From Anaeromyxobacter terrae (GTDB lineage: Bacteria; Myxococcota; Myxococcia; Myxococcales; Anaeromyxobacteraceae), in NCBI RefSeq assembly GCF_022690685.1, contig NZ_JALCYY010000009.1:31093-95092 (forward strand): 64,000 nucleotides of DNA. Reading direction: 5' to 3'. The translations under genes and the position numbers were made by a program. Under the pieces are notes generated by a model that was not told the origin of the DNA, ran no database searches, and saw only the letters and a program-made list of their open reading frames with translations. Shown here in pieces: positions 11,878 through 30,205 of the stretch. Positions within the stretch are counted from its first letter, which is position 1. Each line of letters starts with the position of its first letter.

Positions 11878-11888
11878 GAGGGCGCCGA

Positions 11889-13815: not shown

Positions 13816-13871
13816 CACGCGCGGAGCTCGCGGCGGTATGCGAGCTCGATCGCGAAGGAAGTGACTGCAGG

Positions 13872-15470
13872 ATGAGCACGATGCCGTCGCAGGAAGCCGC
13901 TCCGCAACCCGTCATCACGGCCTCGACCGAGCATCGTGCCGTTCTCGGCCCCGACGCGGCCCGTCGAGGCGAGCTCGTCTTCGCGGTGCTGCTGGCAGCC
14001 GCGTTCGCGCTCGTCACGGGTTTCGCGACCGCGCATCACGAGCTCTGGCGCGACGAGGCGCACGCGTGGCTCCTCGTGCGCGACAGCGCCTCGCCGATGG
14101 CGCTGCTCCACGCCGCGCGGTACGGCGGCCACCCCTACCTCTGGTACGTGCTGCTGTGGCCCCTGGTGCGCATCACGCACGATCCGAGCGCCATGCAGGC
14201 GCTGAGCGTGACGATCGTCACCGCCGCCGCCTTCATCGTCGCCCGGTATGCCCCGAGCCCGAGGTGGGTCCGGGCGCTCGCGGTGCTGGGCTACTTCCCC
14301 GTGTACGAGTACGGGACCATCGCGCGCAACTACGGGCTGGGGCTGCTCGCGCTCGTCGCGTTCTGCGCGCTGTTCCCGCGCCGTCGTGAGCGCCCGCTGC
14401 TCGTCGCTGCGACGCTCTTCGTCCTCGCCAACACGAGCCTGCCCGCCCTCCTGCTCGCGCTCGCCGCCGCCGGGGGGCTGGCGATCGAGGTGCTCTGGCT
14501 GGCGCCGGAAGCCCGCAGCCGGGCGACCTGGGGCGGGTTGGCGATCGTGGCGCTCGGCGTGCTCCTCGCCGTCGCGCAGATGGTCCCCCCGTCCGACAGC
14601 GGCTTTGCGGTCGCGTGGAAGACCGATCTCGACCCGAGCTATGGCGCGTACGTCCTGAGCGACGTCACGAGCGCGTTTCTGCCCCTGCCCATGCCGGGGC
14701 GCTGGTTCTGGCAGACCGAGGTCCTGCTCGCGTTCTCGGCGTACCGCGAGTACGCCTGGATCCTCGCCGTGCTCATCGTCATCGCCGTCGCGGTCGCGCT
14801 CCTTCGCAGGCCGGTGGCGCTCGTCTACTATCTCTCCGCCACCCTTGCTTTGCTCTCGTTCTTCTACGCAAAGTACAACGGCTACCTCCGGCACCACGGC
14901 TTCCTCTTCCTCGCGTTCGGGAGCGCGCTCTGGCTGGCCGCGTACTCGACGGAGGCGCCCCTCTCGAGATCGATCGCGCGCGTCGTCGTCGCGGCCGAGC
15001 GGTCCGTGCGCGTCGTCGCGGCGATCGTCTTCGCCCTGCACGTCGTCGCCGGCGCGATTGCCGTCTGGGGCGAATACCGGTTCGCCTTCTCCGGGGCGAA
15101 GCAGACGGCCGCCTTGATGCGGGAGCGGAGAATCGGAGGTCTCCCGATGGTCGCCGCCCAGGACGACGCGGCCTCGGCGGTGCTCGCCTATCTCGACAAG
15201 GAGGGCGCGTATTACCCCGCGGGCGGACGCAACGGCTCGTTCGTTCTCTACGACGAGGCTCGCACGCGGCCGTTCGACCTCTGGCGGGAGGTGGACGGCT
15301 TCGCGAGCCGGACGGGCGGGCCTGTGGCGGCGGTGCTCACCGTGCCGGTCCTCCAGGGCACCCCGGCACCTCCAGAGCTCCTGAGACGCACGCGGGCGGA
15401 GGGCTGCGGGGTGAGTGACGTGGTTCCGGACGAGAGCTTCTGCGTCTTCACCGTGTGGCCGCGGCCTTGA
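13872..15470 (+). CDS. Polytopic GT-C (PMT/GT39-like) membrane protein
   Basis: Predicted 532 residues starting at the ATG at 13872, with AAGGAAG upstream. The first membrane segment is followed by an outer-loop motif LWRDEAHAW. This acidic pair is characteristic of GT-C glycosyltransferases of the dolichyl/undecaprenyl-phosphate mannose (PMT/ArnT) superfamily. Eight or more further hydrophobic segments follow, then a soluble C-terminal region of about 100 residues without recognised domains. It is probably co-transcribed with the preceding TMTC-like gene. The acceptor is unknown; its position next to the surface-cytochrome operon makes glycosylation of exported proteins worth testing. Confidence 0.7.
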   Translation: MSTMPSQEAAPQPVITASTEHRAVLGPDAARRGELVFAVLLAAAFALVTGFATAHHELWRDEAHAWLLVRDSASPMALLHAARYGGHPYLWYVLLWPLVRITHDPSAMQALSVTIVTAAAFIVARYAPSPRWVRALAVLGYFPVYEYGTIARNYGLGLLALVAFCALFPRRRERPLLVAATLFVLANTSLPALLLALAAAGGLAIEVLWLAPEARSRATWGGLAIVALGVLLAVAQMVPPSDSGFAVAWKTDLDPSYGAYVLSDVTSAFLPLPMPGRWFWQTEVLLAFSAYREYAWILAVLIVIAVAVALLRRPVALVYYLSATLALLSFFYAKYNGYLRHHGFLFLAFGSALWLAAYSTEAPLSRSIARVVVAAERSVRVVAAIVFALHVVAGAIAVWGEYRFAFSGAKQTAALMRERRIGGLPMVAAQDDAASAVLAYLDKEGAYYPAGGRNGSFVLYDEARTRPFDLWREVDGFASRTGGPVAAVLTVPVLQGTPAPPELLRRTRAEGCGVSDVVPDESFCVFTVWPRP

Positions 15471-15839: not shown

Positions 15840-16766
15840 ATGGCCCGCCTCTCGACCGCCATCCTCGCCGTCTTCCTCGCCACCGCCGCTCACGCGGACG
15901 CGCCGGCGGAGCTGCGGACCCGGTATGGCTACGATCTGTCGAGCCTCAGCGGCCGAATCTCCTCGAGCTGGGCGGCCCTCACCTACGACACGGCGAACCG
16001 TGAGCTGTTCATGGTCGACCGGTCGCAGGGCATCGTCCACGTCTTCACCGATCTCGGCATCGAGACCTACAGCTTCGGGGACGAGTCCGAGATCGGGCCG
16101 ATCTCCGGCGTCGTGCCCCTCGAGAGCGGAGATCTGCTCGTCCTCGCCTCGCGCTCCAGCTCCTGGACGGTGTGGCGCTGCAACTTCCGCGGCGAGCCCA
16201 TCGCGAAGCTCTCGATCAAGGGCCTGCCGGACGCGTTCGCGAAGGACTTCGCTCCGAGCGTGCTCCAGCGCGCGGCCGGCCGGACGTACATCGCGGACAA
16301 GGGCTCGATGAGGGTGCTCGTGACGGACGACCAGGGGACGACGGTCGCCACCTACGAGCTGAAGGACCTCCTCAAGTTCGACAAGCGGCACAAGGACGAC
16401 GCGATGAGCGGCTTCAACGTCGATCGCGACGGGAGCATGCTCGTGACGGTCGCTCCGATGTTCCAGGCGTTCGTCGTGTCGCCGAAGGGCGACGTCCGGG
16501 CCTTCGGGACTCACGGAAGCGCGCCGGGCAAGTTCAACATCGTCGGAGGCATCGCGACGGACGAGAAGGGGAACTACCTCGTCACGGACATCCTCCGCGC
16601 CGTCGTCATGGTCTTCGACCGCGAGTTCCAGTTCCTCGGCGAGTTCGGGTACCGGGGTGACGAGCCGGACAATCTCGTCGGCCCCCTCGATCTCGTCGCC
16701 GCGAACGGCAAAGTTTTCGTCGCGCAGTCCGCGAACCGGGGGGTGAAGGTCTTCCGGTACGAGTGA
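15840..16766 (+). CDS. Exported NHL-repeat beta-propeller protein upstream of omcS
   Basis: Predicted 308 residues. The ATG at 15840 begins a classical Sec signal (MARLSTAILAVFLATAAHA, cleavage before DAPAEL). The upstream in-frame codons look non-coding, and the ribosome site is weak. The mature part has NHL-type repeats, for example VFTDLGIETYSFG, VSPKGDVRAFGTHG and VFDREFQFLGEFG, predicting a six-bladed propeller in the periplasm or at the surface. It precedes the OmcS-like gene by 121 bases on the same strand. A second NHL protein closes the operon at 29233. Propellers of this kind commonly act as protein-interaction scaffolds; a role in assembly or stability of the cytochrome filament is inferred from context. 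Confidence 0.8.
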   Translation: MARLSTAILAVFLATAAHADAPAELRTRYGYDLSSLSGRISSSWAALTYDTANRELFMVDRSQGIVHVFTDLGIETYSFGDESEIGPISGVVPLESGDLLVLASRSSSWTVWRCNFRGEPIAKLSIKGLPDAFAKDFAPSVLQRAAGRTYIADKGSMRVLVTDDQGTTVATYELKDLLKFDKRHKDDAMSGFNVDRDGSMLVTVAPMFQAFVVSPKGDVRAFGTHGSAPGKFNIVGGIATDEKGNYLVTDILRAVVMVFDREFQFLGEFGYRGDEPDNLVGPLDLVAANGKVFVAQSANRGVKVFRYE

Positions 16767-16887
16767 CGAGCGACTGAAGCAGGAGTTGCAGCAGCAGTGA
16801 AGAAGAAGTCCAGAGCAGGGGAGTGGTACCCGCAGTAGCAAGGCCCGCGTGATGTCGCAGAGGGCCAAACACAGACAAGGGGAAACA

Positions 16888-18249
16888 ATGAAGTTCGCCA
16901 AGTTTGCCGTTGCAGCGGTCGCCGCGCTGAGCTTCTCCAGCGCGTACGCGTTCCACGACGGCGGCGTCGCGACCTGCGACGGCTGCCACACGATGCACAA
17001 CTCGAAGGGCAACAAGTCGATGTCCCGCAAGGGCGCCGGCGTGCAGTTCCAGGGCGAGATCTACCTGCTCCAGGGCAGCGACCAGAGCTCGACCTGCCTC
17101 AACTGCCACGCGGCGGCTGACACGTCGCCGAAGAGCTACCACATCATGACGTACCCGGTTCCGGCTGCCGGGACGGCGCCCGCCGAGATGAGCCCTGGCG
17201 GCGACTTCGCTTACCTCGCGAAGAGCTACGTCACGGCGATCCGTGGCGCGCCCTACACGAACGCGGGCGACAAGCACGGCCACAACGTGCTCGCCGGCGA
17301 CTACGGCCTCGTCGCGGACTCGAAGCTCGCGACGGCCCCGGGCGGCAACTACGACGCGACGAAGTTCTCCTGCATCTCCTGCCACGATCCGCACAGCCGC
17401 GCCCGTATCGTCGACGCCGCTGGCACGATCGAGTCCTCGGCCTTCGGCGCGAAGACGCTGCCCATCGGCGCGTCGGGCTCCTACGGCGCGCTCCCGATCG
17501 TCGGTGAGGAGGCTGTCGGCGTGTACCGCCTGCTCGCCCCGACGGGCTACGTCCCGATGTCGGTTCCGACCGCCACGGCGTTCGTGAACAACCCGCCTGT
17601 CGCGGTCGCCCCGTCGACCTACAACCGTAAGGAGTCGGCGACCGACACGCGCGTCGCCTACGGCTCGGGCATGTCCGAGTGGTGCGCGAACTGCCACGGC
17701 GCGATCCACAACAACGGCGTCAACTCCGGCAACACGAAGCTCATCCACCCGGCCGGCAACGGCGCGCTCCTGACGGCGCAGGCGAACGACCTCAACGGCA
17801 ACCCGCTCGGCACGACGATCGCGAACATCTACAACGCGTACAAGGGCTCGGGCGACCTCACGGGCACGCAGGCGACCTCGTACGACTCGATGATCCCCTT
17901 CGAGGAGGGCGCGACGGACGTGACTGCCCTCGCCGCGAAGGCCGTCATCGACGGCACGCAGGTTGGCGGCCCGGTGACCGGCACGGAGAACGTGATGTGC
18001 CTCTCCTGCCACCGTGCGCACGCGACGGCGTTCCCGCAGATGAGCCGCTGGAACAACAACGCGCCCTTCGTCGCGGTCGACGGCCAGTGGCCGGGCAAGG
18101 ACATCACGACGAACGCGGAAGTTGCGAACGGCGAGTTCAACCAGGGCCTGACGCAGGCCGAGTACCAGGCGGCGATGTACGACCGCCCGGCGACGCGCTA
18201 CGCCTTCTTCCAGCGCTCGCTCTGCAACAAGTGCCACGCGAAGGACTAG
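16888..18249 (+). CDS. omcS: OmcS-like hexahaem extracellular nanowire cytochrome
   Basis: Predicted 453 residues, ATG preceded by AAGGGG. The signal peptide (residues 1-21) should be cut before FHDGGVATCDGCH, which corresponds to the mature start of Geobacter OmcS (FHSGG...). Six CxxCH motifs lie at Cys30, 70, 162, 266, 371 and 446, the OmcS number and rough spacing. Blocks I recognise from OmcS run the whole length: GCHTMHNS, LLQG-x-x-QSS-x-CLNCH, GHN-x-x-AGDY, TAPGG, AVAPSTYNR, RVAYG-x-GMSEWCANCH, SGDLTGTQA-x-SY, PFEEG, CLSCHRAHA and the terminal CNKCHAKD. The mature His16 equivalent (residue 37 in GCHTMH) is present; in OmcS this residue ligates a haem of the adjacent subunit in the polymer. 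Polymerisation into extracellular filaments is therefore likely but not proved. A strong terminator follows the stop codon. Confidence 0.93.
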   Translation: MKFAKFAVAAVAALSFSSAYAFHDGGVATCDGCHTMHNSKGNKSMSRKGAGVQFQGEIYLLQGSDQSSTCLNCHAAADTSPKSYHIMTYPVPAAGTAPAEMSPGGDFAYLAKSYVTAIRGAPYTNAGDKHGHNVLAGDYGLVADSKLATAPGGNYDATKFSCISCHDPHSRARIVDAAGTIESSAFGAKTLPIGASGSYGALPIVGEEAVGVYRLLAPTGYVPMSVPTATAFVNNPPVAVAPSTYNRKESATDTRVAYGSGMSEWCANCHGAIHNNGVNSGNTKLIHPAGNGALLTAQANDLNGNPLGTTIANIYNAYKGSGDLTGTQATSYDSMIPFEEGATDVTALAAKAVIDGTQVGGPVTGTENVMCLSCHRAHATAFPQMSRWNNNAPFVAVDGQWPGKDITTNAEVANGEFNQGLTQAEYQAAMYDRPATRYAFFQRSLCNKCHAKD

Positions 18250-18279
18250 TCGGCTCGCGCAGCACGCTGGTGTAGTATG

Positions 18280-18312
18280 AGGAGGGGCCGCGAGAGCGGC
18301 CCCTCCTTTCTT
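18280..18312 (+). terminator. Strong intrinsic terminator after omcS
   Basis: A perfect 12-base stem, AGGAGGGGCCGC (18280-18291) and GCGGCCCCTCCT (18296-18307), with a GAGA tetraloop, is followed by TTCTT. It lies 30 bases past the omcS stop and should cut off most transcription before the companion genes, favouring excess OmcS over its assembly factors. Confidence 0.85.
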
Positions 18313-18398
18313 GTCTGCGCCGCTTCATTACGTCGCGGGCGTGAATAGGTCGCCCGTTCGGTTGTTCGCCGAGAGAAGCTCGCGAGATCGGAGCGCGC

Positions 18399-19814
18399 AT
18401 GCGAACACGAACCCTCCTCCAGGCCGCGCTCGTCGCGTCGGTGCTCCTCGCCTGCGCGGCGCGTCCGCGGATCGTCGCCCGCGAGCCGCTCTCCGGCGAG
18501 GCGGACCTGTTCGTCTACGCGCAGCCGTTCCCCGTCGAGGCTCAGAAGCTCGCCGTCACCATTCGCTCGGTCGCCGCGGTGACGGCGCGCGGTGAGACGG
18601 TCCCGCTCGAGCTCGTCCGTCCCGTGCTCTCCGGCCGCGACGCGCGCCACCAGCGGTTGTTCGCGCACGGCCGGCTCGCGCCCGGCGCGTATGCCGGGCT
18701 CCTCGTGGAGGTCGCCGACGCCACCCTGCGCTCCGACGGCGGGACGGCGAACCTGCTCGTCCCGCAGGAGCCGACACGGATCGAGGCGCCCTTCGACGTC
18801 CGCAGCGGCGGCGCGAGGGTCCTGCTCCTGTACCTGAAGCCGGCGGAGGCGATCGAGCGCAACTACGGGTTCACTCCGGCGTTCGCGGTCGCGACGCCCG
18901 AGGTCCCTGTCACGACGCTCGCCGGGGCCTCCTCGAGCACCGCCTGGAACGATCTCTTCCTCTTCGACAAGAAGGCCCGGCAGGTGGTCGCCGCCGTCCC
19001 CACCGGCCGCGAGCCGCGCGGGATCGCCATCGACGAGCGGCAACGCCGGGCCTATGTGGCCCTCGCCGGAGAGGACGAGGTCGCCGTCGTCGACCTGGTC
19101 TCCGCCGAGGTGCTGTCGCGCGTCCGCCTCAACGCCGGCGATCGGCCGGGCCCGGTGGCGCTCGCGCAGAACGGGCAGGTCCTCATCGTGCTGAACGAGG
19201 GGTCCTACACCGTGAGCTTCGTCGACACCGCCACGTGGAACGAGCTCGGCCGCACCCCCGTCGGCCCCGAGCCCGAGTGGCTCGTCCTCGATCCTTCGGG
19301 ACGGCGCGCCTACGTCCTGAGCAGGCGCTCGAACACGATCACGGTCGTGGACACCGTGGCCCGGACGGCGCTCAACACCGCGTCGACGGAGCCGGAGCCC
19401 TTGCGCGCCGTCCTCAACTCCGCCGGGAACCGCCTCTACGTCACGAACGCCGGGTCGCCGTACGTGACGGTGTTCTCCGTTCCCAGCCTCGCGTCGAGCG
19501 ATCGCATCTTCGTCGGACTCGGGGCCGGCGCGGTCCTCGTGGATCGCCGGACGGACCTCCTCTACGTGGCGATGCGGGACGAGCCGCGAGTCCAGGTGTT
19601 CGATCCGTTCTCGTTGTTGCCCGTCGACACCATCGAGCTCCCCGGCCCCGCGTCGTGGATGGTCATCGACGACGTCGAGAACACGCTGTTCCTCCTCATG
19701 CCCGAGTCCCGCGCGATCGCGGTCCTGGATCTCGCGAGCCGCGCCGTCCTGGCCGTCACCGACGTCGGCGAGGATCCGTACGGGCTCGCGATCGCGGGGG
19801 CGCGCGGTCGATGA
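18399..19814 (+). CDS. YncE-type beta-propeller lipoprotein (OscD-like position)
   Basis: Predicted 471 residues; ATG with GGAG ten bases upstream. A short hydrophobic N-terminus ends in a lipobox (LLAC, Cys19). Residues about 25-165 form a beta-rich N-terminal domain. Residues about 185-470 form YncE/seven-bladed propeller repeats of the kind VAAVPTGREPRGIAIDERQR, IAVLDL, VVDTVARTALNT and VFDPFSLLPVDTIELPG. The stop overlaps the next start in ATGA, so it is translationally coupled to the beta-barrel gene. It matches in type and position the propeller protein (OscD) reported among the omcS-companion genes of G. sulfurreducens, as I recall that work, where it affects nanowire morphology. Equivalence should be tested by alignment. 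Confidence 0.8.
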   Translation: MRTRTLLQAALVASVLLACAARPRIVAREPLSGEADLFVYAQPFPVEAQKLAVTIRSVAAVTARGETVPLELVRPVLSGRDARHQRLFAHGRLAPGAYAGLLVEVADATLRSDGGTANLLVPQEPTRIEAPFDVRSGGARVLLLYLKPAEAIERNYGFTPAFAVATPEVPVTTLAGASSSTAWNDLFLFDKKARQVVAAVPTGREPRGIAIDERQRRAYVALAGEDEVAVVDLVSAEVLSRVRLNAGDRPGPVALAQNGQVLIVLNEGSYTVSFVDTATWNELGRTPVGPEPEWLVLDPSGRRAYVLSRRSNTITVVDTVARTALNTASTEPEPLRAVLNSAGNRLYVTNAGSPYVTVFSVPSLASSDRIFVGLGAGAVLVDRRTDLLYVAMRDEPRVQVFDPFSLLPVDTIELPGPASWMVIDDVENTLFLLMPESRAIAVLDLASRAVLAVTDVGEDPYGLAIAGARGR

Positions 19815-22009
19815 GACCCCACGCGCGTGCCGCGCTAGCCCTCCTGCTCGGGCTCTGGGCGACCGGGGCTCGCGGGGACGGGTGGTCGGCGGTCATCGAG
19901 GAGCAGTACACGAGGACCGAGACCAAGGTGACGGATCAGGGCGCCGAGGCGCGGACCTCGTCAGCGGACGTCGTGCTACAGCGGTACCGTCTCGGGGCCG
20001 ACAAGACGATCTTCCCGTATCTGACCCTCGCGGGCGGCGGTCAGTTCGAGGACACGCAGACCTGGCAAGGCGGGTTCGGCTCGAATGACACGACCGACTC
20101 CAGGCTCGCGAGCATCTTCGGCCGGTTGAACGTAGGGGGGCCGACCTTGAACGGTCGCGGCAGCTATGACCGCCGGCAGGAGTGGTCGCGCACGCTCACC
20201 CTGCACTCACCGTCGCTCATCTCCGAGACCCTCGCCTTCGACAGCTCGTGGAGGCCGCTCGATCTGCCCCTGATCACGTTCGGGGCAAGCCGCCAGAACT
20301 CGTTCGACAGCGACCGGGTCGGGCAGGATCAGACGAACGACGTCTTCCTCCTCACCGCCGCGTACAAGGCGTCGAAGGCGCTTCGGGTCGCCTACTCCGC
20401 GCGGTACGACGACAGCGAGGATCGCATCCACGGCGCCGAGCGGACCGCCGTCGGGCAGTCGGGGCGGATCACCTACGACGATCGCTGGTTCGACCGGCGC
20501 ACGCTCGTGCACCTGAACTATGACGTACAGTCGACGTTCGCGAACACGACGGTGCGTGACGCCGGCGCGGAGATCCCCGTCGCACAGGTTCCCCTCGCCG
20601 GGCTGTCCCTGGTGGAGACCTTCCCGACCCCGGAGACGGCGACGCTCGTCCCGAACCCCGCCCTCGTCGACGGAAACACCACGGCGGGCGCGGCCCTGAA
20701 CATCGGGTTTTCCCCCCGTGCGAAGGGCGACGCCAACGCACGGGAGATGGGGGTCGAGCTTCCGATCGTCCCTGCGACGCCGGTCAACACGATCCGTCTA
20801 TGGGTGAATCAGCCACTCCCTCAGCTGGTCGTGAGCGCATTCCGATTCAGCGTCTACGAGAGTGACGACAACGAGCACTGGACGCCCGTCGCCCTCATCG
20901 GCCCGGTCGTGTTCGGCGTGTTCGAGAACCGGTTCGAGCTCCGCATCCAGGAGACCACGGCGAGGTACGTGAAGGTGGTCACGCCTCCTCTGGACCCCGC
21001 CGTCACGCCGGACCCCAAGTACGCGGACATATTCGTGACCGAGCTACAGTTCTTTCAGACGGTCGCCGCCGAGTCCGTGCGTGGACGCAGCAGCGCACTA
21101 TTGAACTCGGTCAGCGCGAGCGCGAGGACGGTCTTGCTCCAGTCGCCGAACGTGGCTCACGATTTCTCGCTTCAGCTCGCGCGCTCCGATACGCGGAGCC
21201 CTGGGCGCGATGTCGGTGAGACACGCCTTGCCCTTGCAAACGGGCTATCGCTCGCTCACAAGCTCGCGCAACCTCTGGTGTTGAACGCACGAATTGCGCG
21301 TCAGGATTTCTTCGCGAAGGCGACGCACTCGGGCATCCTCAACTGGAGCGCAGGCCTCGGGTATACGCCGTTCCAGACGATGAGCCACTCGCTCAACTAC
21401 TCCGGTTCGTGGCGGCAAGGGACCACCGGGAGCGCGCTCACGAACTCCCTCTCGCTCTTCAGCAGGGCGGAGCTCTACCGTGGCGTCAGCGTGTCCGGCG
21501 ACGGCGGATACACCCTCTCGTTTCTCGAGGGGGGTCGACTCTCGAGCGGTGTGCGCACGGGCGCCGCGCTGGGCCTGAGGCCTCACCGCACGTTCCAGCT
21601 TTCCGGCGGCTACCGCCTCTCGAGGACTTCCACCTCGGGGGGCGGCATGCCCTCGAGCAGGTCCACGCAGGAGCAGGTCGAGGGTGGGGCCTCGTACAGC
21701 CCCACCGAGGCGCTCTACGCGAGCGCGTCGGTGACGCGGATCATTCGCGGGGCGCGGCCGACCACGCTCGCCGGCCTGGGCGTGGGATGGTCGCCGCTGC
21801 AGGGAGGAGATCTGACCCTGAACGCGACCTACTCGAGGACCCTCGACACGTCCGCCGACGCGGTGACGCAGTTCATCTCGCCCTCTGCACGCTGGACCAT
21901 CCGCCCCGGCACCTTTCTCGATCTCGCGTATGTCATCAGCGACTCGAGCGCGGCAGCGCAGGAGTCGAACGCGCGTCTACTCACGGCGAACCTGACGGTG
22001 ACGCTGTGA
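19811..22009 (+). CDS. Outer-membrane beta-barrel protein with inserted discoidin-like domain
   Basis: Predicted 732 residues with a Sec signal (residues 1 to about 22, ending TGARG). The chain is dominated by alternating hydrophobic/polar segments rich in Ser, Thr, Arg and aromatic residues, ending in ANLTVTL, as expected of a transmembrane beta-barrel. Between about residues 290 and 420 lies a different domain with RLWVNQPLP, FSVYESDDNEHWTPV, ETTARYVKVVT and ELQFFQ. This resembles F5/8 type C (discoidin) domains, which bind glycans or surfaces. ATGA overlap couples it to the preceding propeller gene. By position it corresponds to a channel-like component of the omcS-companion set (OscE-like, my inference). 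Formation of the filament exit pore is possible but unproved. Confidence 0.75.
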   Translation: MRPHARAALALLLGLWATGARGDGWSAVIEEQYTRTETKVTDQGAEARTSSADVVLQRYRLGADKTIFPYLTLAGGGQFEDTQTWQGGFGSNDTTDSRLASIFGRLNVGGPTLNGRGSYDRRQEWSRTLTLHSPSLISETLAFDSSWRPLDLPLITFGASRQNSFDSDRVGQDQTNDVFLLTAAYKASKALRVAYSARYDDSEDRIHGAERTAVGQSGRITYDDRWFDRRTLVHLNYDVQSTFANTTVRDAGAEIPVAQVPLAGLSLVETFPTPETATLVPNPALVDGNTTAGAALNIGFSPRAKGDANAREMGVELPIVPATPVNTIRLWVNQPLPQLVVSAFRFSVYESDDNEHWTPVALIGPVVFGVFENRFELRIQETTARYVKVVTPPLDPAVTPDPKYADIFVTELQFFQTVAAESVRGRSSALLNSVSASARTVLLQSPNVAHDFSLQLARSDTRSPGRDVGETRLALANGLSLAHKLAQPLVLNARIARQDFFAKATHSGILNWSAGLGYTPFQTMSHSLNYSGSWRQGTTGSALTNSLSLFSRAELYRGVSVSGDGGYTLSFLEGGRLSSGVRTGAALGLRPHRTFQLSGGYRLSRTSTSGGGMPSSRSTQEQVEGGASYSPTEALYASASVTRIIRGARPTTLAGLGVGWSPLQGGDLTLNATYSRTLDTSADAVTQFISPSARWTIRPGTFLDLAYVISDSSAAAQESNARLLTANLTVTL

Positions 22010-22041
22010 CGGTGGCCCGCGTGTTGCATCGGAGTCGCGAC

Positions 22042-22614
22042 ATGCTGATCCCGCGCAAGAACGCGCGCATTCTCCTCGTGATCCTGCTCATGGCGTGCTC
22101 GGGACCGGGTGCACGGCGCCAGTACCGGAATGCCGAGATGGACTTCGGCTCGGTGCACACGGTGCTCGTGATGCCGTTCGCGAACCTGAGCCGCGACTCC
22201 ATGGCCGGCGAGCGCGTGCGGGACGTCTTCGTCAACATGCTGCTGTCGAGCGGCTCGATCTACGTCCTCCCACAGGGCGAGGTCATTCGCGGCGCGAACC
22301 GGGTCGGCATCGTGAACCCCGCGGTCCCGAACGTCGAGGAGGCGGTCAAGCTCGGCGGTCTGCTCAAGGCGGACGCCGTGATCACGGGCGTGGTCCGGGA
22401 GTACGGCGAGCTGAGGTCCGGGACCGCGTCGTCGAACGTGGTGTCGCTCAGCCTGCAGCTCATCGAGACACAGACCGGGAAGATCGTGTGGTCCGCGTCC
22501 ACCACCAAGGGAGGGGTCGGCTTCGGCGCGCGCCTGCTGGGCGGGGGCGGCGCTCCGTTGAACGACGTGACGGAGGAAGCCGTCGATGACCTCCTCAACA
22601 AGCTCTTCAAGTAG
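22042..22614 (+). CDS. CsgG-like lipoprotein, small
   Basis: Predicted 190 residues. The ATG at 22042 has GGAG ten bases upstream. The lipobox LLMAC places the lipidated Cys at 19. The mature part has the CsgG/GNA1162-like signature: VLVMPFANLSRD, a periodic helix with ERVRDVFVNMLLSSG, the strand IYVLPQGEV, ADAVITGVV-RE and a Gly-rich GFGARLLGGGG turn. CsgG forms the outer-membrane channel that exports curli subunits; related lipoproteins such as GNA1162 are periplasmic or outer-membrane. Placed between a beta-barrel gene and a second CsgG-like gene in the OmcS operon, it is a candidate OscF-like part of the cytochrome export channel. It overlaps the next gene by 29 bases. Confidence 0.8.
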   Translation: MLIPRKNARILLVILLMACSGPGARRQYRNAEMDFGSVHTVLVMPFANLSRDSMAGERVRDVFVNMLLSSGSIYVLPQGEVIRGANRVGIVNPAVPNVEEAVKLGGLLKADAVITGVVREYGELRSGTASSNVVSLSLQLIETQTGKIVWSASTTKGGVGFGARLLGGGGAPLNDVTEEAVDDLLNKLFK

Positions 22615-23881
22615 GGCATCGCTCGCGGCGCTCGCGCTCGGCCTCGCCGCACTCGCGTGCGCAGGGCCCCACGCGACGTCCGCGGCCGGTTCGACGCCCG
22701 ATCCCTCGGTCCAGACGGCGGGGCCGGCTTCTCCCGGGCAGCCGCAACCCCGAGAGCGGCCGCGTCTCGCCGGCCGCCGGATCGCGGTGCTCCCCATCGA
22801 GAACCTGAGCGGCGGCCCCGTCCCCGCGAAGCACCTCCTGCAGATCCTCTCGCTCGCGGTCGCGCGCGCGGGCGCGGAGGTGGTCGTCGAGGATCCCGTC
22901 GACGAGTTCCTCTCGCGCCATCGCGTTCGCTTCACCGGAGGGGTGGATTCGAACACGGCGAGCGCTGCCCGTGACGAGCTCGGGGTCGACGCGGTGCTGG
23001 TCACGTCGGTGCTGCTCCATCACGCCGGCTCACAGCCGAAGATCGCGGTCACGATGCGGCTCGTCGCCGCGCAGGAGCATCCCGAGATCCTGTGGATGGA
23101 CGGCGCGGTCATGAGCGGTAACGACGACCCAGGCTTCCTGGACCTCGGGATCATCTCGAACATCGGGCGGCTCGAGCGGAACGCGCTCTCGCGGCTCACC
23201 ACCTCTCTCGCCGGCTTCCTCGGCGGGAAGGGGTCGCCCATGACGACCTGCCCGGCGGAGCGCCGGTTCGAGCCCAGGATCAGCTTCCGCTCGCGGCGCT
23301 TCGCGCCCGGCGCCGCATCGGTCGCCGTCCTCCCGTTCGTGAACCTGACGGAGCGGAGAGGGGCGGGCGAGGCGCTCGCGGTCGAGTTCGTCAGGCATCT
23401 CTCCTCGCTCGGCTCGATGACGGTCCTCGAGCCCGGGGTCGTGCGCGACGCCCTCATCCGCTACCGCATCGTCCTCGAGGGCGCGGTCTCGCTCCTCGCC
23501 GTCCGGACCGCGACGGAGGTGCTCGGGAGCGACCTCGTGCTCACCGGCGTCGTCCGCGAGTACGACGACGCCGGGCCCGTCCCGAAGGCCGACTTCACGG
23601 TGACGCTCATCGACACGCGCACCGAGGAGGTGGTCTGGGAGGCGACCTCGGATCACAGGGGTGACGACGACGTCGTGCTCTTCGATCGTGGCAGGGTCAA
23701 CACGGCGACGGCGCTCGCCTGCCGGATGGTACGGACCGTCGTCGACGGCATCGCCGCGGCGACGAAGCGCGCTCCTGGGATGCGCGATCGGTCTCCAGCG
23801 ACCCAGGAGCAGCAGAGAGCCGCCGAGGCGCAGAGGCAGCGCACCGTCGGCTCCGTGCGTCGCGAGCCGCACGACGGATGA
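22586..23881 (+). CDS. Lipoprotein with two tandem CsgG/TolB-N-like domains
   Basis: Predicted 431 residues; start within the end of the previous gene (29-base overlap, coupled translation). Lipobox ALAC, Cys25. Two copies of one fold are visible: RIAVLPIENLSGGP at about 65-78 and SVAVLPFVNLTERRG at about 245-259. Each is followed by a helix, an EDPV/LEPGVV strand, and a conserved DAVLVTSV or DLVLTGVVREY strand. Copy two ends with LIDTRTEEVVWEA, matching LIETQTGKIVW of the small upstream protein. The last 50 residues are Arg/Gln-rich and probably disordered. It is likely an OscG-like channel component, reported in Geobacter to bind OmcS; the assignment rests on domain type and gene order. Confidence 0.78.
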   Translation: MTSSTSSSSRASLAALALGLAALACAGPHATSAAGSTPDPSVQTAGPASPGQPQPRERPRLAGRRIAVLPIENLSGGPVPAKHLLQILSLAVARAGAEVVVEDPVDEFLSRHRVRFTGGVDSNTASAARDELGVDAVLVTSVLLHHAGSQPKIAVTMRLVAAQEHPEILWMDGAVMSGNDDPGFLDLGIISNIGRLERNALSRLTTSLAGFLGGKGSPMTTCPAERRFEPRISFRSRRFAPGAASVAVLPFVNLTERRGAGEALAVEFVRHLSSLGSMTVLEPGVVRDALIRYRIVLEGAVSLLAVRTATEVLGSDLVLTGVVREYDDAGPVPKADFTVTLIDTRTEEVVWEATSDHRGDDDVVLFDRGRVNTATALACRMVRTVVDGIAAATKRAPGMRDRSPATQEQQRAAEAQRQRTVGSVRREPHDG

Positions 23882-24149
23882 GAGCGCGCAGACCGCTCGC
23901 GGCGGGCGTTCCGGGCCGGCGACACAGGGCAGCGAAAAACGATCGAATCATCGAGGGCCCACGCAACGCTTGCGCAGAAGTCAGGTGCGCAATCGGGCAA
24001 ATCAGGAACGAATCTGCGGAATTGCAGCGGTTTAAGGCGGCCCGTCAGGGGGCACACCCGTTGCAGCCTGCGCCGTCGGCCACGGAACGTGGACGGCGAA
24101 CGACCGCCGAACGATGTGGCCGCGCAAGAGCGCGGTCGAGAGGAGCGAC

Positions 24150-25973
24150 ATGACGACGCGTGCAGTTCTCGCAGCCGTGCTTGCCTCGTTGCCCGCGTGG
24201 GCGTTCTCGGCGGCTCCCGCGAAGGCGACTCAGGCGGCGCCGCCGCCGGCCGCCGCGCCGAAGTCCGAGGCCGCCAAGAGCGGCGCAGGGGCCGCCCCGA
24301 AGACCGCCGCCCCCGGAGGCGCGAAGAAGCCCTCCGAGCCCGAGGGCGTCCAGGCCTACCTGAAGGTGCCGTTCCTGTCGCCGCGGTTCGCCTCGACGCC
24401 GGTCGCCGCCGTCGACGGCGACGCCATCACCATGGGGGAGCTCGTCGACACGCTCGCGCTCGAGCACGCGCCGCGGAAGCCGGAGCCCGGCGCCGAGCCC
24501 GCGACCCCCGCCCAGGCGAGCCGCAGCGACTTCACGCGCGTGCTCGACCGGCTCGTCGACACCCGGGTCGTGGCGTCCGAGGCGCGGGACATGGGGATCG
24601 GCGATCTCCCCCAGATCAAGGAGGAGATGGCGAAGTTCGAGGAGACCGAGCTCCGCAAGACGTTCGAGCGGTCGGTCACGAAGGACCTGAAGCCCGACCC
24701 GGTCGTCGTCGAGAAGCTGTACAAGGACTCGGTCCGCGAGTGGAAGATCCGGTCGATCGCCTTCGACAAGGAGGAGGACGCGCGCGCGGCCGCGCCGCTC
24801 GTGCGCGACGGAAAGGCGTTCGACGAGGTGGCGAAGCGCCTCGTCGCGGAGAAGAAGGCGCGCGGAAACGACGAGCCGGTCTACGCCCCGGAGTCGAAGC
24901 TCCTGCCCGAGATCGTGCAGGCAGCCTCGCAGCTCACCCCGGGCGCCGTGAGCGCGCCCGTCAAGATTCCGTCCGGCTACGCCATCCTGAAGGTCGAGGA
25001 CGTTCGCTACCCGGAGGACCCCGAGGCCCGGGCGATCGCCGAGGAGCGCTCGCTCGAGATGAAGCGGCGCCAGACCGTGCTCAAGACCTACGAGTCGCTC
25101 GCGAAGAAGTACGCCGTCGTCGACGAGAAGCTCATCGATCGGCTCGACTACGAGGCGAAGAAGCCCGGCTGGAACGTGCTGTTCAAGGACAAGCGGCCCC
25201 TCGCGAAGATCCGCGGCGAGGCGCCCATCACGGTGGGCGATCTCGGCGAGGGGATCTCGCTCAAGTTCTTCCACGGGATGGAGGGGCCGATCCGGGCGAA
25301 GCAGGTGAACATCGCGAAGCGCGTGACGTTCGAGGGCATGCTGATGCGGCGGCTCTTCAGGAAAGAGGCGCTCGCGCAGAAGCTCGACCAGAGCGAGGAG
25401 TACAAGGCGGCGACCGCCGAGTACGAGACGTCGCTTCTCTTCGGGATGTTCGTGCAGCGCGCGGTCGTTCCTTCGGTGAAGGTCACCGAGGGGGAGCTCA
25501 TGGAGTACTACGAGAAGAACAAGGCGGATTTCACCACCCCCGCCTTCTATCGGCTCGATGCGCTCGCCTTTCGCAGCGAGAAGGCCGCGCAGGCGGCGCT
25601 CGACAAGATCAAGTCGGGCACGGACCTCAAGTGGCTCAAGGCGAACGCGACCGACCAGGTCCCGGCGGAGCAGCGCGACCTCGACTTCGGCGGGACGATC
25701 TACAGCGCGAAGGGGCTCCCGGCCGATCTCGCGAAGCTGATCGCCAACTCGAAGAAGGGTGAGTTCCGGCTCTACGCGGCGCCCGGCGGACAGGCTTACG
25801 TGGTGCAGATCCTCGACGTCACGCCCGCGAAGGAGTCGCCGTACAAGGAGAGCCGCGAGGCGATCGCAAAGAAGTTGTTCGCCCGCAGCGTCGACAAGGC
25901 GCTCGACGAGTGGGTGGCGAAGCTCCGCAAGGAGCACGACGTCAAGATCTACATCACGCGCGTCGACGGGTGA
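24150..25973 (+). CDS. SurA/PpiC-type peptidyl-prolyl isomerase chaperone (OscH-like)
   Basis: Predicted 607 residues. I chose the ATG at 24150 (GAGGAG six bases upstream), which begins a good Sec signal (MTTRAVLAAVLASLPAWAFSA). An Ala/Pro/Lys-rich linker follows to about residue 70. Next comes a SurA-N-like helical domain (VAAVDGDAITMGELVD) and a parvulin-like region at about 190-290 with IRSIAFDKEEDA and a VKIPSGYAILKVEDVR strand. A second helical part and a second parvulin-like region (YRLDALAFRSEKAAQAAL to YVVQILDV, about 465-565) complete it. Such proteins fold exported outer-membrane and secreted proteins in the periplasm. A prolyl-isomerase chaperone, OscH, is reported to fold OmcS in Geobacter; this gene occupies the same place. 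It begins 268 bases after the CsgG-like genes and 26 bases before the 26-haem gene. Confidence 0.85.
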   Translation: MTTRAVLAAVLASLPAWAFSAAPAKATQAAPPPAAAPKSEAAKSGAGAAPKTAAPGGAKKPSEPEGVQAYLKVPFLSPRFASTPVAAVDGDAITMGELVDTLALEHAPRKPEPGAEPATPAQASRSDFTRVLDRLVDTRVVASEARDMGIGDLPQIKEEMAKFEETELRKTFERSVTKDLKPDPVVVEKLYKDSVREWKIRSIAFDKEEDARAAAPLVRDGKAFDEVAKRLVAEKKARGNDEPVYAPESKLLPEIVQAASQLTPGAVSAPVKIPSGYAILKVEDVRYPEDPEARAIAEERSLEMKRRQTVLKTYESLAKKYAVVDEKLIDRLDYEAKKPGWNVLFKDKRPLAKIRGEAPITVGDLGEGISLKFFHGMEGPIRAKQVNIAKRVTFEGMLMRRLFRKEALAQKLDQSEEYKAATAEYETSLLFGMFVQRAVVPSVKVTEGELMEYYEKNKADFTTPAFYRLDALAFRSEKAAQAALDKIKSGTDLKWLKANATDQVPAEQRDLDFGGTIYSAKGLPADLAKLIANSKKGEFRLYAAPGGQAYVVQILDVTPAKESPYKESREAIAKKLFARSVDKALDEWVAKLRKEHDVKIYITRVDG

Positions 25974-25999
25974 GCGCGGTCCACGACTTCAGCGAGGGC

Positions 26000-27955
26000 A
26001 TGGCTTTGACCTCCAAGACCAACCGGTGGGTGCTCGCGCTCGTGGCCCTGTCGGCGGCGTTCCTCGCCGCCGCTCCGGGCCGGGCGGAAGCGGCGAGACA
26101 GTTCAAGTCGAAGGACTGCATCGAGTGCCACAAGCCGTTCGCGGACAAGTACGACTCCGTCAAGTTCACGCACCCCGCCGTGAAGCAGCGGAAGTGCGAG
26201 GACTGCCACCTGCGGCACGGCGTCGTGCCGAAGCTCGTGCTGAAGGAGCCCGGCGCGAACCTGTGCTTCAAGTGCCACAAGCGCGAGTCGCTCGGCCTCG
26301 ACAAGCCGAACGTCCACAAGGTGCTCCGCACCGGCGCCTGCGGGCAATGCCACGACGTGCACGGCTCGAACGCGCCGCACATGCTGAAGGCCGAGGGCAG
26401 CCAGGTCTGCTACGCCTGTCATGACAAGGCGGCGTTCGAGCGCAAGAACGTGCACAAGGTGCTCGCGAAGGACGGGTGCCAGGCGTGCCACCTCGCGCAC
26501 GCGTCCGACCAGAAGAACCTGCTCGCGGCGGAGGAGGGCAAGCTCTGCTCGAAGTGCCACTCGACCAGCGCGGGCGGGTTCGTGAAGGCGCACGGGGGCT
26601 ACCCGGTCGCGACCTGCACCGGGTGTCACGATCCGCACTCCGCGGATCGCGCGAAGCTCCTGAAGGCGTCCGTCCACCCGCCGGTCGCGGAGTCGTCCTG
26701 CTCCGACTGCCACGTGCCCGCGAAGTCGGCGAAGCCGTTCGCCGTGCAGGAGGTGGGCGCGAAGCTGTGCGCGAACTGCCACGACTCCGCCAAGCTGCTC
26801 GGCGGGGGCACCGTCGTGCACAAGCCCGTGAAGGACGGGCAGTGCGTCGCGTGCCACGATCCCCACGCGTCGAGCGCGCCGAAGCTCGCGCACGCCCCGG
26901 GTAGCCGCCTCTGCCTCGAGTGCCACCCGCAGATGGGCCAGAAGGTCTCGGTCGCGCACGCGCCGATGTCGGCCGCTGGAGGCTGCGTCTCGTGCCACAA
27001 GCCGCACGCCGCCAAGGAGAAGAAGCTCCTCGCGAGCAACGTGGCGACGCTCTGCGGTAGCTGTCACAAGAAGACGTTCGAGGAGAAGCGCAAGATCGCC
27101 CACCAGCCGTTCGTCGATCGCGACTGCGCCGCGTGTCACGATCCCCATGGCTCGAACCTGCCCGGCATGGTGAAGTCGCGTCTCGACAAGGTCTGCTTCG
27201 GCTGCCACGCCGAGGAGGAGACCCGCTTCATCAAGACGCACACCCACAAGCCCGTGCTCGACGGCCGGTGCGGCGCGTGCCACTCCGGGCACGGCTCCGA
27301 CGAGCCGAAGCTGCTCAGGGCAAAGGGCGCGAAGCTCTGCGAGCAGTGCCACGCCGGGATGATGAAGGCGGACGCGAGCGGGACGACGCACGCGCCGTTC
27401 GCGAAGGGCGACTGCCTCACCTGTCACGATCCGCACGGCTCGAACACCGCCGGCATGCTCGTGTCCGACACGAAGGCGCTCTGCTCGCGATGCCACGAGA
27501 AGACGGAGAAGGCGGTCCAGGGCGCGACGAGCGTGCACGCGGCGTTCAGCGCTGGCGACTGCACGAAGTGCCACAGCCCCCACCAGGCGAAGCTGAAGAA
27601 CCTCATGCTCGCGCAGACGCCGGACGTCTGCCTGACCTGCCATGACCGCATGAAGGAGAAGCTCGCGACGGGGAAGCGGCACCAGCCCGTCGAGGACTGC
27701 CTGTCGTGCCACGGGCCGCATGCGTCCAAGCAGCCGAAGCTCGCGGTGGATCGCTCGGCCGAGCTGTGCGGTCAGTGCCACGACGAGAAGGAGGGCAAGT
27801 TCACGACGGCCCACCTCGGCATCGCGGCGACCGACATGAACTGCACGAGCTGCCACGATCCGCACGCATCCAAGGACCCCAAGATGTTCAAGGGACTGCA
27901 GCACGCGCCCTTCGCATCGCGGGACTGCGGCAACTGCCACGTCGTCGAGAAGTAG
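26000..27955 (+). CDS. Periplasmic 26-haem cytochrome, doubled CxxCH family
   Basis: Predicted 651 residues. The start at 26000 gives a clean Sec signal (about residues 1-31, ending GRAEA). No lipobox is present, so a soluble periplasmic or secreted protein is expected. I count 26 CxxCH motifs and no longer variants. They come in pairs, typically CxxCHDPHGS or CxxCHxPHAS followed 20-25 residues later by xLCxxCH, the doubled-CxxCH arrangement; about 13 pairs fill the chain. The Lys-rich spacers make it basic, unlike the Thr/Ser/Gly-rich giant lipoproteins. It sits 26 bases after the prolyl-isomerase gene and 9 bases before a related 16-haem gene. A role in carrying electrons through the periplasm to the OmcS-like filament is inferred. 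Confidence 0.92.
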   Translation: MALTSKTNRWVLALVALSAAFLAAAPGRAEAARQFKSKDCIECHKPFADKYDSVKFTHPAVKQRKCEDCHLRHGVVPKLVLKEPGANLCFKCHKRESLGLDKPNVHKVLRTGACGQCHDVHGSNAPHMLKAEGSQVCYACHDKAAFERKNVHKVLAKDGCQACHLAHASDQKNLLAAEEGKLCSKCHSTSAGGFVKAHGGYPVATCTGCHDPHSADRAKLLKASVHPPVAESSCSDCHVPAKSAKPFAVQEVGAKLCANCHDSAKLLGGGTVVHKPVKDGQCVACHDPHASSAPKLAHAPGSRLCLECHPQMGQKVSVAHAPMSAAGGCVSCHKPHAAKEKKLLASNVATLCGSCHKKTFEEKRKIAHQPFVDRDCAACHDPHGSNLPGMVKSRLDKVCFGCHAEEETRFIKTHTHKPVLDGRCGACHSGHGSDEPKLLRAKGAKLCEQCHAGMMKADASGTTHAPFAKGDCLTCHDPHGSNTAGMLVSDTKALCSRCHEKTEKAVQGATSVHAAFSAGDCTKCHSPHQAKLKNLMLAQTPDVCLTCHDRMKEKLATGKRHQPVEDCLSCHGPHASKQPKLAVDRSAELCGQCHDEKEGKFTTAHLGIAATDMNCTSCHDPHASKDPKMFKGLQHAPFASRDCGNCHVVEK

Positions 27956-27964
27956 AGGACATCG

Positions 27965-29233
27965 ATGAGCGCGAGACCTTTCATCCTCGTCCTTGCGGTC
28001 GCCGCCCTGGCGGGACCCCCGGTCGCTGCTCGAGCCGCTCCGAAGTTCAAGCTGAAGCCGGGTGCGGCAGGCCAGGTGTGCCTCGAGTGCCACCCGGACT
28101 TCTCCGAACGGCTCAAGAAGCAGTTCGTCCACACTCCGGTCCGGTCGAAGGAGTGCACCGGGTGCCACAACCCCCACGCCTCCGACCACGGCAAGCTGCT
28201 CGCCGCGGACGCGAACGCGATCTGCGCGACGTGCCACAAGGACGTCATCGCGAAGAACGCGAAGAGCACGCACCAGCCCGTCGTGCAGCAGCAGTGCGGG
28301 CAGTGTCATGACCCGCACGCCTCGAACGTGAAGTTCAACCTCGTCAAGGGCGGCGCCGAGCTCTGCGGGACGTGCCACAAGACGCTCGTCGACGGCGCCA
28401 CGGCCTCGAAGTTCAAGCACCGCGCCGTCCAGAACGGCTGCGGGAGCTGCCACGACGCCCACGCGTCGGCGACGGGCCCGAAGCTGCTCAAGGCGGACGT
28501 GCCTCAGCTCTGCCTCGGGTGCCACAAGGTCGACGGGCCGATCCTGATGAAGAAGCACATGAACTACCCCGTCGCGAAGGCGCAGTGCACGAGCTGCCAC
28601 GATCCGCACGGCTCGAACACGCGTGGCATGCTCTACAACACGGTCCACGCGCCGGTCGCGAAGGGCATGTGCGCGCAGTGCCACGAGGCCCCGGGCTCGC
28701 CCAACGGCTTCAAGCCGAAGCAGGCGGGGATCGCGCTGTGCCGCGGCTGCCACATCCAGAACATCAACAACATGATGGACAAGAACCGCGTCCATCGTCC
28801 GGTCACCGAGGGCGCCGCCTGCCTGACGTGCCACGGCCCCCACGCGTCGAAGGCGAAGGGGCTCCTCAAGGCCGACATGCGGACGGTCTGCGGCAGCTGC
28901 CACGCCGACACCATCAAGCGCGGCGACATGTCGGTGACGAAGCACCAGCCCATCAAGAACGCCGAGTGCACGAGCTGCCATGACCCGCACGGCTCGGACG
29001 CGGCGCTCATGCTGGTGAAGACCGAAACGATCGAGCTCTGCGGGAAGTGCCACGACTGGCAGAAGCACGCGTCGCACCCGGTCGGCGCGAAGTACGTCGA
29101 CCCGCGCAACAAGAACCTGACGCTGCAGTGTCTCAGCTGCCACCGCGCGCACGGCACCGAGTTCAAGCAGATGATGCCCTACGCGACGGTTCCCGAGACG
29201 TGCACGAAGTGCCACGAGAAGTTCAAGAGGTGA
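27965..29233 (+). CDS. Periplasmic 16-haem cytochrome, doubled CxxCH family
   Basis: Predicted 422 residues; AGAGGA ribosome site before the ATG. Sec signal residues 1 to about 24 (ending VAARA), no lipobox. Sixteen CxxCH motifs in about eight doubled modules (CxxCHDPHAS or CxxCHDPHGS, then ELCGTCH, QLCLGCH, ALCRGCH and similar) show clear homology to the upstream 26-haem protein, so the pair probably arose by gene duplication followed by module loss or gain. The last pair has an RAHGTEF segment. The stop overlaps the next start (TGATG), so translation is coupled to the NHL protein. It may form a conduit or complex with its larger neighbour. Confidence 0.92.
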   Translation: MSARPFILVLAVAALAGPPVAARAAPKFKLKPGAAGQVCLECHPDFSERLKKQFVHTPVRSKECTGCHNPHASDHGKLLAADANAICATCHKDVIAKNAKSTHQPVVQQQCGQCHDPHASNVKFNLVKGGAELCGTCHKTLVDGATASKFKHRAVQNGCGSCHDAHASATGPKLLKADVPQLCLGCHKVDGPILMKKHMNYPVAKAQCTSCHDPHGSNTRGMLYNTVHAPVAKGMCAQCHEAPGSPNGFKPKQAGIALCRGCHIQNINNMMDKNRVHRPVTEGAACLTCHGPHASKAKGLLKADMRTVCGSCHADTIKRGDMSVTKHQPIKNAECTSCHDPHGSDAALMLVKTETIELCGKCHDWQKHASHPVGAKYVDPRNKNLTLQCLSCHRAHGTEFKQMMPYATVPETCTKCHEKFKR

Positions 29234-30147
29234 TGACCGTGCTCAGAGCCATCGACGCGAGGGTGATCGCCTCGCTCGTCGTCGTCCTCGCCGCGAGCGG
29301 GGCACGCGCGGAGAGCGTCTCGTTCAAGCACCAGGCGACCGTGTACAGGGACGCGAAGGACGGCAAGCTCTCCGCCCCCGAGGGCGTGGCCTGCAACGAC
29401 GCCGGGCTGCTCGTGGTCGCCGATACCGGGAACGCTCGGCTCCTCACGTACTTCGTGAAGGAGGGCGCCGTGACGCCGGCGGCCGAGGTGAAGGTCCCGC
29501 AGCTCAAGCACCCGGTCCGACTGCAGCTCGACTCGAAGGGCAACATGCTCGTGCTCGACCGCAAGCTGCGGCGCATTGCACGGCTCGATCCCAAGGGCGC
29601 GTTCCAGGCCTACCTGGACGTGAAGCCCGCGGGTGTGGCGGAGGTCGTGCCCACGAGCTTCAAGGTGGACCGCGCCGACAGCGTGTACGTGCTCGACGCG
29701 ACCGCCGGGAAGGTGTTCGTGGTCGATGCAGCGGGCTCGGTGACGGCGACGCTCCCGCTCCCCACGGACGCAGGAACGTTCACGGACGTCGCGGTGGATG
29801 CCGCCGGAACGATCTACGTGCTCGACGGGGTGCGCGCGGCGGTGTGGTCCGCCGCGAAGGGCGCGACGGCCTTCTCGCCGCTCGGGAAGAGCTTCAAGGA
29901 CTACGCGAGCTTCCCCACCTACCTGATGGCGAACAACCGGGGCGTCCTGCTGGTGGTCGACCAGAACGGCGCCGGCATCGTCATGCTCGGTCAGGACGGA
30001 AGCTACCTGGGGCGTCAGCTCAGCCTCGGCTGGACGGACGGGCTCCTCTATTACCCGTCGCAGATCTGCCTCGACGCTCAGGGCGAGGCGTTCGTGGCAG
30101 ACCGGTCGAACAACCGCGTGCAGATGTTCACGTCGGTCGTTCAATAG
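29233..30147 (+). CDS. Exported NHL-repeat beta-propeller protein, last gene of the operon
   Basis: Predicted 304 residues. The ATG overlaps the previous stop by one base and has AAGAGG upstream. Sec signal to about residue 26 (ending SGARA). NHL-type blades are visible: LSAPEGVACNDAGLLVVADT, LKHPVRLQLDSKGNMLVLDR, FKVDRADSVYVLDA, FTDVAVDAAGTIYVLDG and YPSQICLDAQGEAFVADRS. About six blades make a complete propeller. It resembles the NHL protein before omcS in size and type, so the operon is bracketed by propellers. An intrinsic terminator follows 21 bases after the stop. Function is probably scaffolding for the adjacent cytochromes. Confidence 0.82.
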   Translation: MTVLRAIDARVIASLVVVLAASGARAESVSFKHQATVYRDAKDGKLSAPEGVACNDAGLLVVADTGNARLLTYFVKEGAVTPAAEVKVPQLKHPVRLQLDSKGNMLVLDRKLRRIARLDPKGAFQAYLDVKPAGVAEVVPTSFKVDRADSVYVLDATAGKVFVVDAAGSVTATLPLPTDAGTFTDVAVDAAGTIYVLDGVRAAVWSAAKGATAFSPLGKSFKDYASFPTYLMANNRGVLLVVDQNGAGIVMLGQDGSYLGRQLSLGWTDGLLYYPSQICLDAQGEAFVADRSNNRVQMFTSVVQ

Positions 30148-30168
30148 CGATCCAAGGTGTCCGATTCC

Positions 30169-30205
30169 GGGGCGCGCTTCCACGGGAGCGCGCCCCGTTT
30201 CGTTT
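30169..30205 (+). terminator. Intrinsic terminator of the OmcS-companion operon
   Basis: A perfect ten-base stem GGGGCGCGCT (30169-30178) and AGCGCGCCCC (30187-30196) with an eight-base loop is followed by GTTTCGTTT. It lies 21 bases past the NHL stop codon and marks the end of the transcription unit. Confidence 0.85.

Follow-up and report, generated by a model that had tools for sequence, protein, structure and literature searches.

A single-hexahaem osc gene cluster in Anaeromyxobacter terrae with a candidate filament subunit outside the OmcS and OscC lineages

A 64,000-nucleotide stretch of the Anaeromyxobacter terrae genome (contig NZ_JALCYY010000009.1, positions 31,093 to 95,092 of the forward strand; hereafter the window) carries, at window positions 15840-30147, a ten-gene cluster built around an OmcS-like hexahaem c-type cytochrome. 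By gene content and order this cluster is a new member of the already known osc system, with OscD-OscE-OscF-OscG-OscH-OscI-OscJ following an OmcS-like gene in conserved order. By its place in the hexahaem tree, the cytochrome represents a third lineage, that of single-hexahaem osc loci. We consider it probable, though well short of certain, that the cluster produces and exports a cytochrome filament built from one type of hexahaem subunit. The position of a terminator-like hairpin and a conflict between the hexahaem and machinery trees both point to the window hexahaem as the exported subunit of the filament; its polymerisation is predicted.

The osc cluster and its hexahaem lineage

Open reading frames, CXXCH counts and phmmer searches placed all ten genes, intact, at or near the coordinates given in the initial annotation, in the order NHL, hexahaem, propeller, large barrel, two lipoproteins, parvulin, 26-haem, 16-haem and NHL. 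From oscD onward the genes overlap or sit close together, except for a gap of ~270 bp 5′ of the parvulin gene. The features are listed below; synteny was surveyed with phmmer over loci fetched by hexahaem homology, and the Geobacter sulfurreducens cluster was compared through its relative G010 (locus L119), whose OmcS was the best among the genomes examined and is 72% identical to the solved one (PDB 6ef8).

15840-16766, + strand: NHL-repeat propeller protein with a signal peptide (first NHL gene); weak NHL match, homolog directly 5′ of the hexahaem gene in most osc loci, including L119
16888-18249, + strand: OmcS-like hexahaem c-type cytochrome, proposed filament subunit
18279-18308, + strand: terminator-like hairpin at the hexahaem/oscD junction; 13-bp stem, loop of 4, T-rich tail
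18399-19814, + strand: oscD, YncE/YVTN-type beta-propeller lipoprotein; Pfam YNCE (E 1.7e-12), TIGR02276 repeats, syntenic homologs
19811-22009, + strand: oscE, predicted outer-membrane beta-barrel of ~28 strands with a CBM32/F5-8C-like insert
22042-22614, + strand: oscF, single-domain PelC/GNA1162/LpoB-like lipoprotein
22586-23881, + strand: oscG, lipoprotein with two tandem PelC-like domains in its model
24150-25973, + strand: oscH, periplasmic SurA/PrsA-like chaperone with two parvulin domains; Rotamase_2 (E 2.3e-26), Rotamase (E 3.7e-10), weak SurA_N_3
26000-27955, + strand: oscI, 26-haem c-type cytochrome (26 CXXCH); homolog in most osc loci, including those of distant phyla
27965-29233, + strand: oscJ, 16-haem c-type cytochrome (16 CXXCH); syntenic homolog in L119
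29233-30147, + strand: second NHL-repeat propeller protein, at the cluster end; NHL (E 2.9e-16), syntenic in L119-L122
30168-30197, + strand: terminator-like hairpin closing the cluster; 13-bp stem

The hexahaem protein comprises 453 amino acids, with a signal peptide and six CXXCH motifs. Its sole match among solved structures was OmcS (6ef8; phmmer E 7e-114, query residues 22-453 against chain residues 1-407) at 54% identity, and its nearest named relative, at 84% identity, is a protein of Anaeromyxobacter soli SG29. Besides the six CXXCH motifs, six further histidines (H2, H16, H110, H147, H257 and H335 in 6ef8 numbering) are retained throughout the OmcS, OscC and window clades, and the window protein retains 109 of the 128 positions that are invariant across the OmcS clade. 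Full-length homology, the motifs and these histidines place it in the OmcS/OmcT/OmcJ/OscC hexahaem family. The 12 conserved histidines supply all ligands for six bis-histidine haems, including the one donated across the subunit interface; in OmcS, a haem is ligated by a histidine of the neighbouring subunit (PMC9473688). The window sequence thus has the predicted inter-subunit ligand, which, being common to all three clades, is uninformative about differences between them.

Phylogenetic analysis of 87 hexahaem sequences, rooted with an outgroup, placed OmcS in a 10-row clade (support 100/99) and OscC in a 5-row clade (100/100), both within a group of 33 rows (98/98). The window protein falls outside this OmcS plus OscC group, in an 11-row clade (100/100) of Anaeromyxobacter genes and some Geobacteraceae genes; the larger group containing that clade has support of 90/83, and the deeper root is less certain. 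Constrained topologies, evaluated on a 41-row set with the approximately unbiased test (p-AU), rejected both strict orthologies: grouping of the window clade with OmcS (GSU2504) to the exclusion of OscC gave p-AU 0.002, and grouping with OscC (GSU2501) to the exclusion of OmcS gave p-AU 0.007. The residue signature separating OmcS from OscC consists of six columns only, of which the window clade resembles OmcS in four and OscC in one, too few to decide. The OmcS type assigned in the initial annotation holds at the level of the family and fails at the level of the clade. Neither of the two results named there as refuting its reading was obtained: the alignment with OmcS is full-length, and the companion genes show conserved synteny elsewhere.

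The same ten-gene order recurs in dozens of loci of other genomes, far beyond chance. In L119 it is interrupted only by a second hexahaem between omcS and oscD, which by position would correspond to OscC/GSU2501. As far as its published description goes, the G. sulfurreducens omcS/osc cluster (GSU2504-GSU2493) likewise agrees with the window in gene families and order, the direct comparison being with L119; the gene block is described in PMC12977616, and the names OscI (GSU2495) and OscJ (GSU2494) in PMC13194489. PMC13194489 cites Shen et al. (2025, Cell Chem Biol) for what OscD, OscEFG and OscH do in G. sulfurreducens, including a proposed part of OscEFG in OmcS secretion. The window differs in having one hexahaem instead of omcS (with omcT) and oscC, in drawing that subunit from another lineage, and in the hairpin, which immediately precedes oscD here and separates omcS from oscC there. 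Neither the cluster nor the rest of the genome encodes a further hexahaem that would correspond to OscC. The companion set, initially described as complete, does include OscD-OscJ and both NHL genes; what it lacks is OscC. Since single-hexahaem clusters are also known in Geobacteraceae (PMC12977616), this absence is no bar to osc membership.

Those Geobacteraceae loci, termed 'Clade 3A' (G. luticola, H2geo, G. daltonii, G. uraniireducens; PMC12977616), are the closest parallels in having a single hexahaem; one H2geo gene belongs with the window protein in the 11-row clade, and the machinery of these loci is of the Geobacteraceae type. PMC12977616 groups 3A with GSU2501, whereas our outgroup-rooted tree joins OmcS with OscC and leaves the window lineage outside both. 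Parts of the system had already been recorded in the genus: a core operon of propeller, 16-haem, 26-haem and peptidyl-prolyl isomerase genes, shared by SEEP-SRB1, Anaeromyxobacter and Geobacter, was reported in 2017 and discussed for electron uptake by syntrophic partners, without a link to OmcS assembly (PMC5539420), and OmcS homologs of A. dehalogenans were reported in 2024 (PMC10954620). The two large cytochromes, initially taken for an addition of this organism's operon, are accordingly ordinary osc members, OscI and OscJ, as synteny and both published accounts (PMC13194489; PMC5539420) indicate.

Hairpin position and the conflict between subunit and machinery trees

The stem of the hairpin between the hexahaem gene and oscD is GC-rich. 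Across the whole region, hairpin sites were no commoner than in shuffled sequence, and those at 18279-18308 and 30168-30197 were by far the strongest. Among relatives, scored for a stem of ≥8 bp followed by a T-rich tail, a hairpin followed the hexahaem gene in 27 of 34 single-hexahaem loci (one hexahaem before oscD) and the first gene in 18 of 29 tandems, compared with the second gene in 2 of 18 tandems and 0-8% of junctions between machinery genes; shuffling predicted ~2 in a set of 52. Fisher tests of these contrasts gave p = 3e-6 and 7e-4, values that are not exact because the loci are related, and the internal junctions, being mostly coding sequence, form an imperfect control. Where omcS and oscC lie in tandem, omcS is the gene followed by the hairpin, and oscC has none behind it. 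The closing hairpin had no comparable counterpart behind the second NHL gene in 20 other loci.

These observations suggest that the 18279-18308 hairpin acts as a terminator. Because it intervenes, the hexahaem gene is probably not simply co-transcribed with oscD and the genes beyond. By the same criterion, the window gene, which unlike OscC genes is followed by a hairpin, would hold the place of omcS, that of the abundant exported subunit, and OscC would belong to the machinery unit. Our literature search found no paper on a terminator behind omcS, and the separation of hexahaem from assembly genes by a hairpin appears to be new here.

A second line of evidence comes from comparing the hexahaem tree with a machinery tree built from concatenated OscD-OscH. 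The machinery of Geobacter AOG1 (L005), Geotalea SG265 (L006) and H2geo (L009) falls inside Geobacteraceae, and the alternative grouping with Anaeromyxobacter was rejected (p-AU 0.0009). Their hexahaems belong to the window clade, and joining them to other single-gene Geobacteraceae hexahaems was rejected (p-AU 7e-53). Locus L027 combines Anaeromyxobacter-type machinery with an OmcS-clade hexahaem, whose placement in the window clade was likewise rejected (p-AU 6e-38). The groups for these tests were chosen after the trees had been viewed, so that all three p-values flatter the case. Gene order also differs in L005, L006 and L009, where the NHL gene follows the hexahaem gene instead of preceding it.

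This discordance suggests, as the simplest reading and one new here, that subunit genes were exchanged between clusters of the Anaeromyxobacteraceae and Geobacteraceae types, in front of resident machineries; the alternative is unsampled gene duplication and loss. Exchange would require that one type of machine accept subunits of either lineage. A wider proposal, which we hold more tentatively and place just short of an even chance, is that the osc machinery is an interchangeable factory able to polymerise several hexahaem lineages, with subunits traded independently between phyla and a conserved terminator setting the ratio of subunit to machinery. If so, the single non-OmcS hexahaem of the window would make this cluster a minimal nanowire system, built on one subunit.

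Assembly proteins and genomic surroundings

Pfam and NCBIfam models recognised the cytochromes, OscD as a YncE-type propeller, OscH as a chaperone with two parvulin domains, the second NHL protein and, weakly, the first; no model in either collection matched OscE. The AlphaFold model of OscE (predicted local distance difference test score, pLDDT, 87.6; predicted template modelling score, pTM, 0.60) contains 11 long strands, an insert at residues ~254-419 and then 17 long strands, giving ~28 by manual count from DSSP. The insert has a weak profile match to CBM32 (2jd9, E 0.005) and, lying after strand 11, would be extracellular if the N-terminus is periplasmic. Fold matches were to barrels in general; MtrB and LptD were two of those whose alignment covered most residues. 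The MtrB alignment reached Z 15.9 over 378 residues at 7.4 Å, and LptD and usher barrels fitted about equally. For this model, the fold comparison indicates a large barrel and no particular family.

OscF and OscG match the GNA1162/LpoB/PelC group better than CsgG, the likeness named in the initial annotation. OscF has a profile match to PelC (9h80, E 3e-8), and its lipobox cysteine is invariant in the alignment. The OscG model (pLDDT 85.8) consists of two PelC-like domains in tandem, and its top fold matches are all PelC. Strands 136-146/152-161/167-177 and 317-327/334-343/348-358 of this model are joined by short loops, with no further long hairpins; a curli channel of the CsgG type was rejected for OscG, which lacks the CsgG-type membrane hairpins, and for OscF, which is too short at the hairpin positions of the alignment (judged by length). 

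Because OscF and OscG are PelC-like and PelC forms a ring of twelve lipoproteins on the PelB barrel of an exopolysaccharide exporter (PMC12141448), we prefer a PelBC-like plan for OscEFG, in which a ring, predicted by this likeness, would lie at the periplasmic side of the outer-membrane barrel. The osc system differs from PelB/PelC in its substrate, a haem protein, in the ~28 strands and CBM32-like insert of OscE, and in having two types of lipoprotein, one with a doubled domain.

The 26-haem gene is retained even in distant loci without recognised oscD and oscE. Divergent hexahaem loci of this kind occur in metagenome-assembled genomes of an unclassified bacterium, Gemmatimonadota, Fibrobacterota and Latescibacterota (L068, L070, L074, L076, L077), with OscI kept, often a remote OscF, and no recognisable OscD or OscE; L074, L076 and L077 are nearly alike under different phylum names, which suggests transfer or mis-binned contigs. 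Within the genus, Anaeromyxobacter oryzae (L125, L003) has two osc clusters ~30 kb apart with hexahaems of two different lineages. A. soli SG29 (L002/L123/L124) has a second, similar hexahaem ~9 kb away on the opposite strand, with no machinery of its own in the stretch read, probably a recent duplicate.

Directly 3′ of the cluster, three further multihaem cytochrome genes (30387-32171, 32491-34518 and, on the other strand, 34612-37404) encode 8, 16 and 22 CXXCH motifs and Geobacter-type CxxxxCH/CxxCH domains, one with a fibronectin/purple-acid-phosphatase-like domain. On the 5′ side, 10207-15470 encodes several glycosyltransferase-like proteins with multiple membrane spans, of which some, judged by eye, end in TPR-like regions. 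Further 5′ on contig C132, beyond the window and ~29 kb from the hexahaem gene, a triheme c7 gene (TIGR04257) stands in a row of genes (L128:1437-7749) that also encodes 4Fe-4S/ferredoxin, NrfD-like and lipoyl-like domains, a multihaem c and a cytochrome b. This row is a putative quinol:cytochrome oxidoreductase operon and a plausible source of periplasmic electrons.

A proposed filament factory and its alternatives

In the proposed mechanism, the upstream unit of NHL and hexahaem genes would be strongly transcribed, with most transcripts stopping at the hairpin, and the assembly genes would be supplied in smaller amount by partial read-through or a promoter of their own, yielding many subunits per machine. 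The hexahaem would enter the periplasm, receive its six haems and be kept soluble by the chaperone OscH. It would then exit through the OscE barrel, beneath which OscF and OscG may form their ring, and outside the cell the subunits would form an end-to-end stack in which, as in OmcS, a haem of each subunit is ligated by a histidine from its neighbour. The rise of OmcS itself is near 47 Å (PMC12954529). OscD may act on the filament form, and OscI and OscJ may carry electrons through the periplasm towards or from the filament base.

Filament formation by the window hexahaem is favoured by the gene order shared with L119, whose OmcS closely resembles the solved filament subunit, and by the published genetics of OscD-OscH in G. 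sulfurreducens (as cited in PMC13194489). The host genome (5.65 Mb, 99.98% complete) contains no other hexahaem of the OmcS-like family, so that the machinery would have no other substrate of that family. Several points weigh against a filament. The hexahaem lies outside the OmcS clade; OmcS is the one member of its set of paralogs known to polymerise, and homology has been considered insufficient by itself to infer filaments outside the genus (PMC12977616). We found no report of a filament in Anaeromyxobacter in the literature. In A. dehalogenans respiring metals, the 16- and 26-haem homologs were reported not to be expressed (PMC5539420). Whether Fe(III) reduction requires OmcS at all is also contested (PMC11077965). 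A simple scan found no sigma-70-like promoter, which carries little weight in a GC-rich myxobacterium.

The most serious alternative, though distinctly less probable, is that the cluster exports and matures the hexahaem as a monomeric or oligomeric surface or extracellular cytochrome, with polymerisation confined to the OmcS branch, which would have adopted a pre-existing secretion system. This is one of two options considered for non-OmcS hexahaems in PMC12977616 and accords with a protein outside OmcS plus OscC; the retained ligand histidines and OmcS-clade invariant positions argue against it, as does the occurrence of OmcS-clade and window-clade subunits before the same kind of machinery. 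We regard as unlikely a porin-cytochrome conduit resembling MtrAB, formed by OscE with OscI/OscJ and possibly running inward from an external donor or partner, with the hexahaem as its outer terminus. The size and fold of OscE, the persistence of the 26-haem gene where oscD and oscE are not recognised, and the discussion of the four core genes for electron uptake in partners of anaerobic methanotrophic archaea (ANME), together with their reported silence in metal respiration (PMC5539420), would fit such a conduit. Against this, other barrels resemble OscE about as well as MtrB does, and the PelC-like lipoproteins and the chaperone indicate export, in line with the secretion role cited for OscEFG in PMC13194489. 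The MtrB/PioB porin model TIGR03509 found no match in the host genome, a weak negative, since control genomes gave no match either.

That the cluster is a decayed or silent acquisition without function in its host seems very improbable. The osc system has a scattered distribution across genera, and within the order the hexahaem is a minority feature, matched in 17 of 117 genomes; yet none of the ten frames is broken, each of the 7 other near-complete genomes of the genus gives a high-scoring OscD match, and the hairpin behind the hexahaem gene is conserved.

Which OmcS-like cytochromes outside Geobacter form wires is a disputed question (PMC12977616, PMC11077965). A complete machinery with a single candidate subunit outside the OmcS and OscC lineages offers a clean test case for it, in which either the hexahaem forms filaments or the machinery has another job. 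Hairpin position and the mismatch between subunit and machinery provide sequence criteria by which the filament subunit may be chosen in other genomes.

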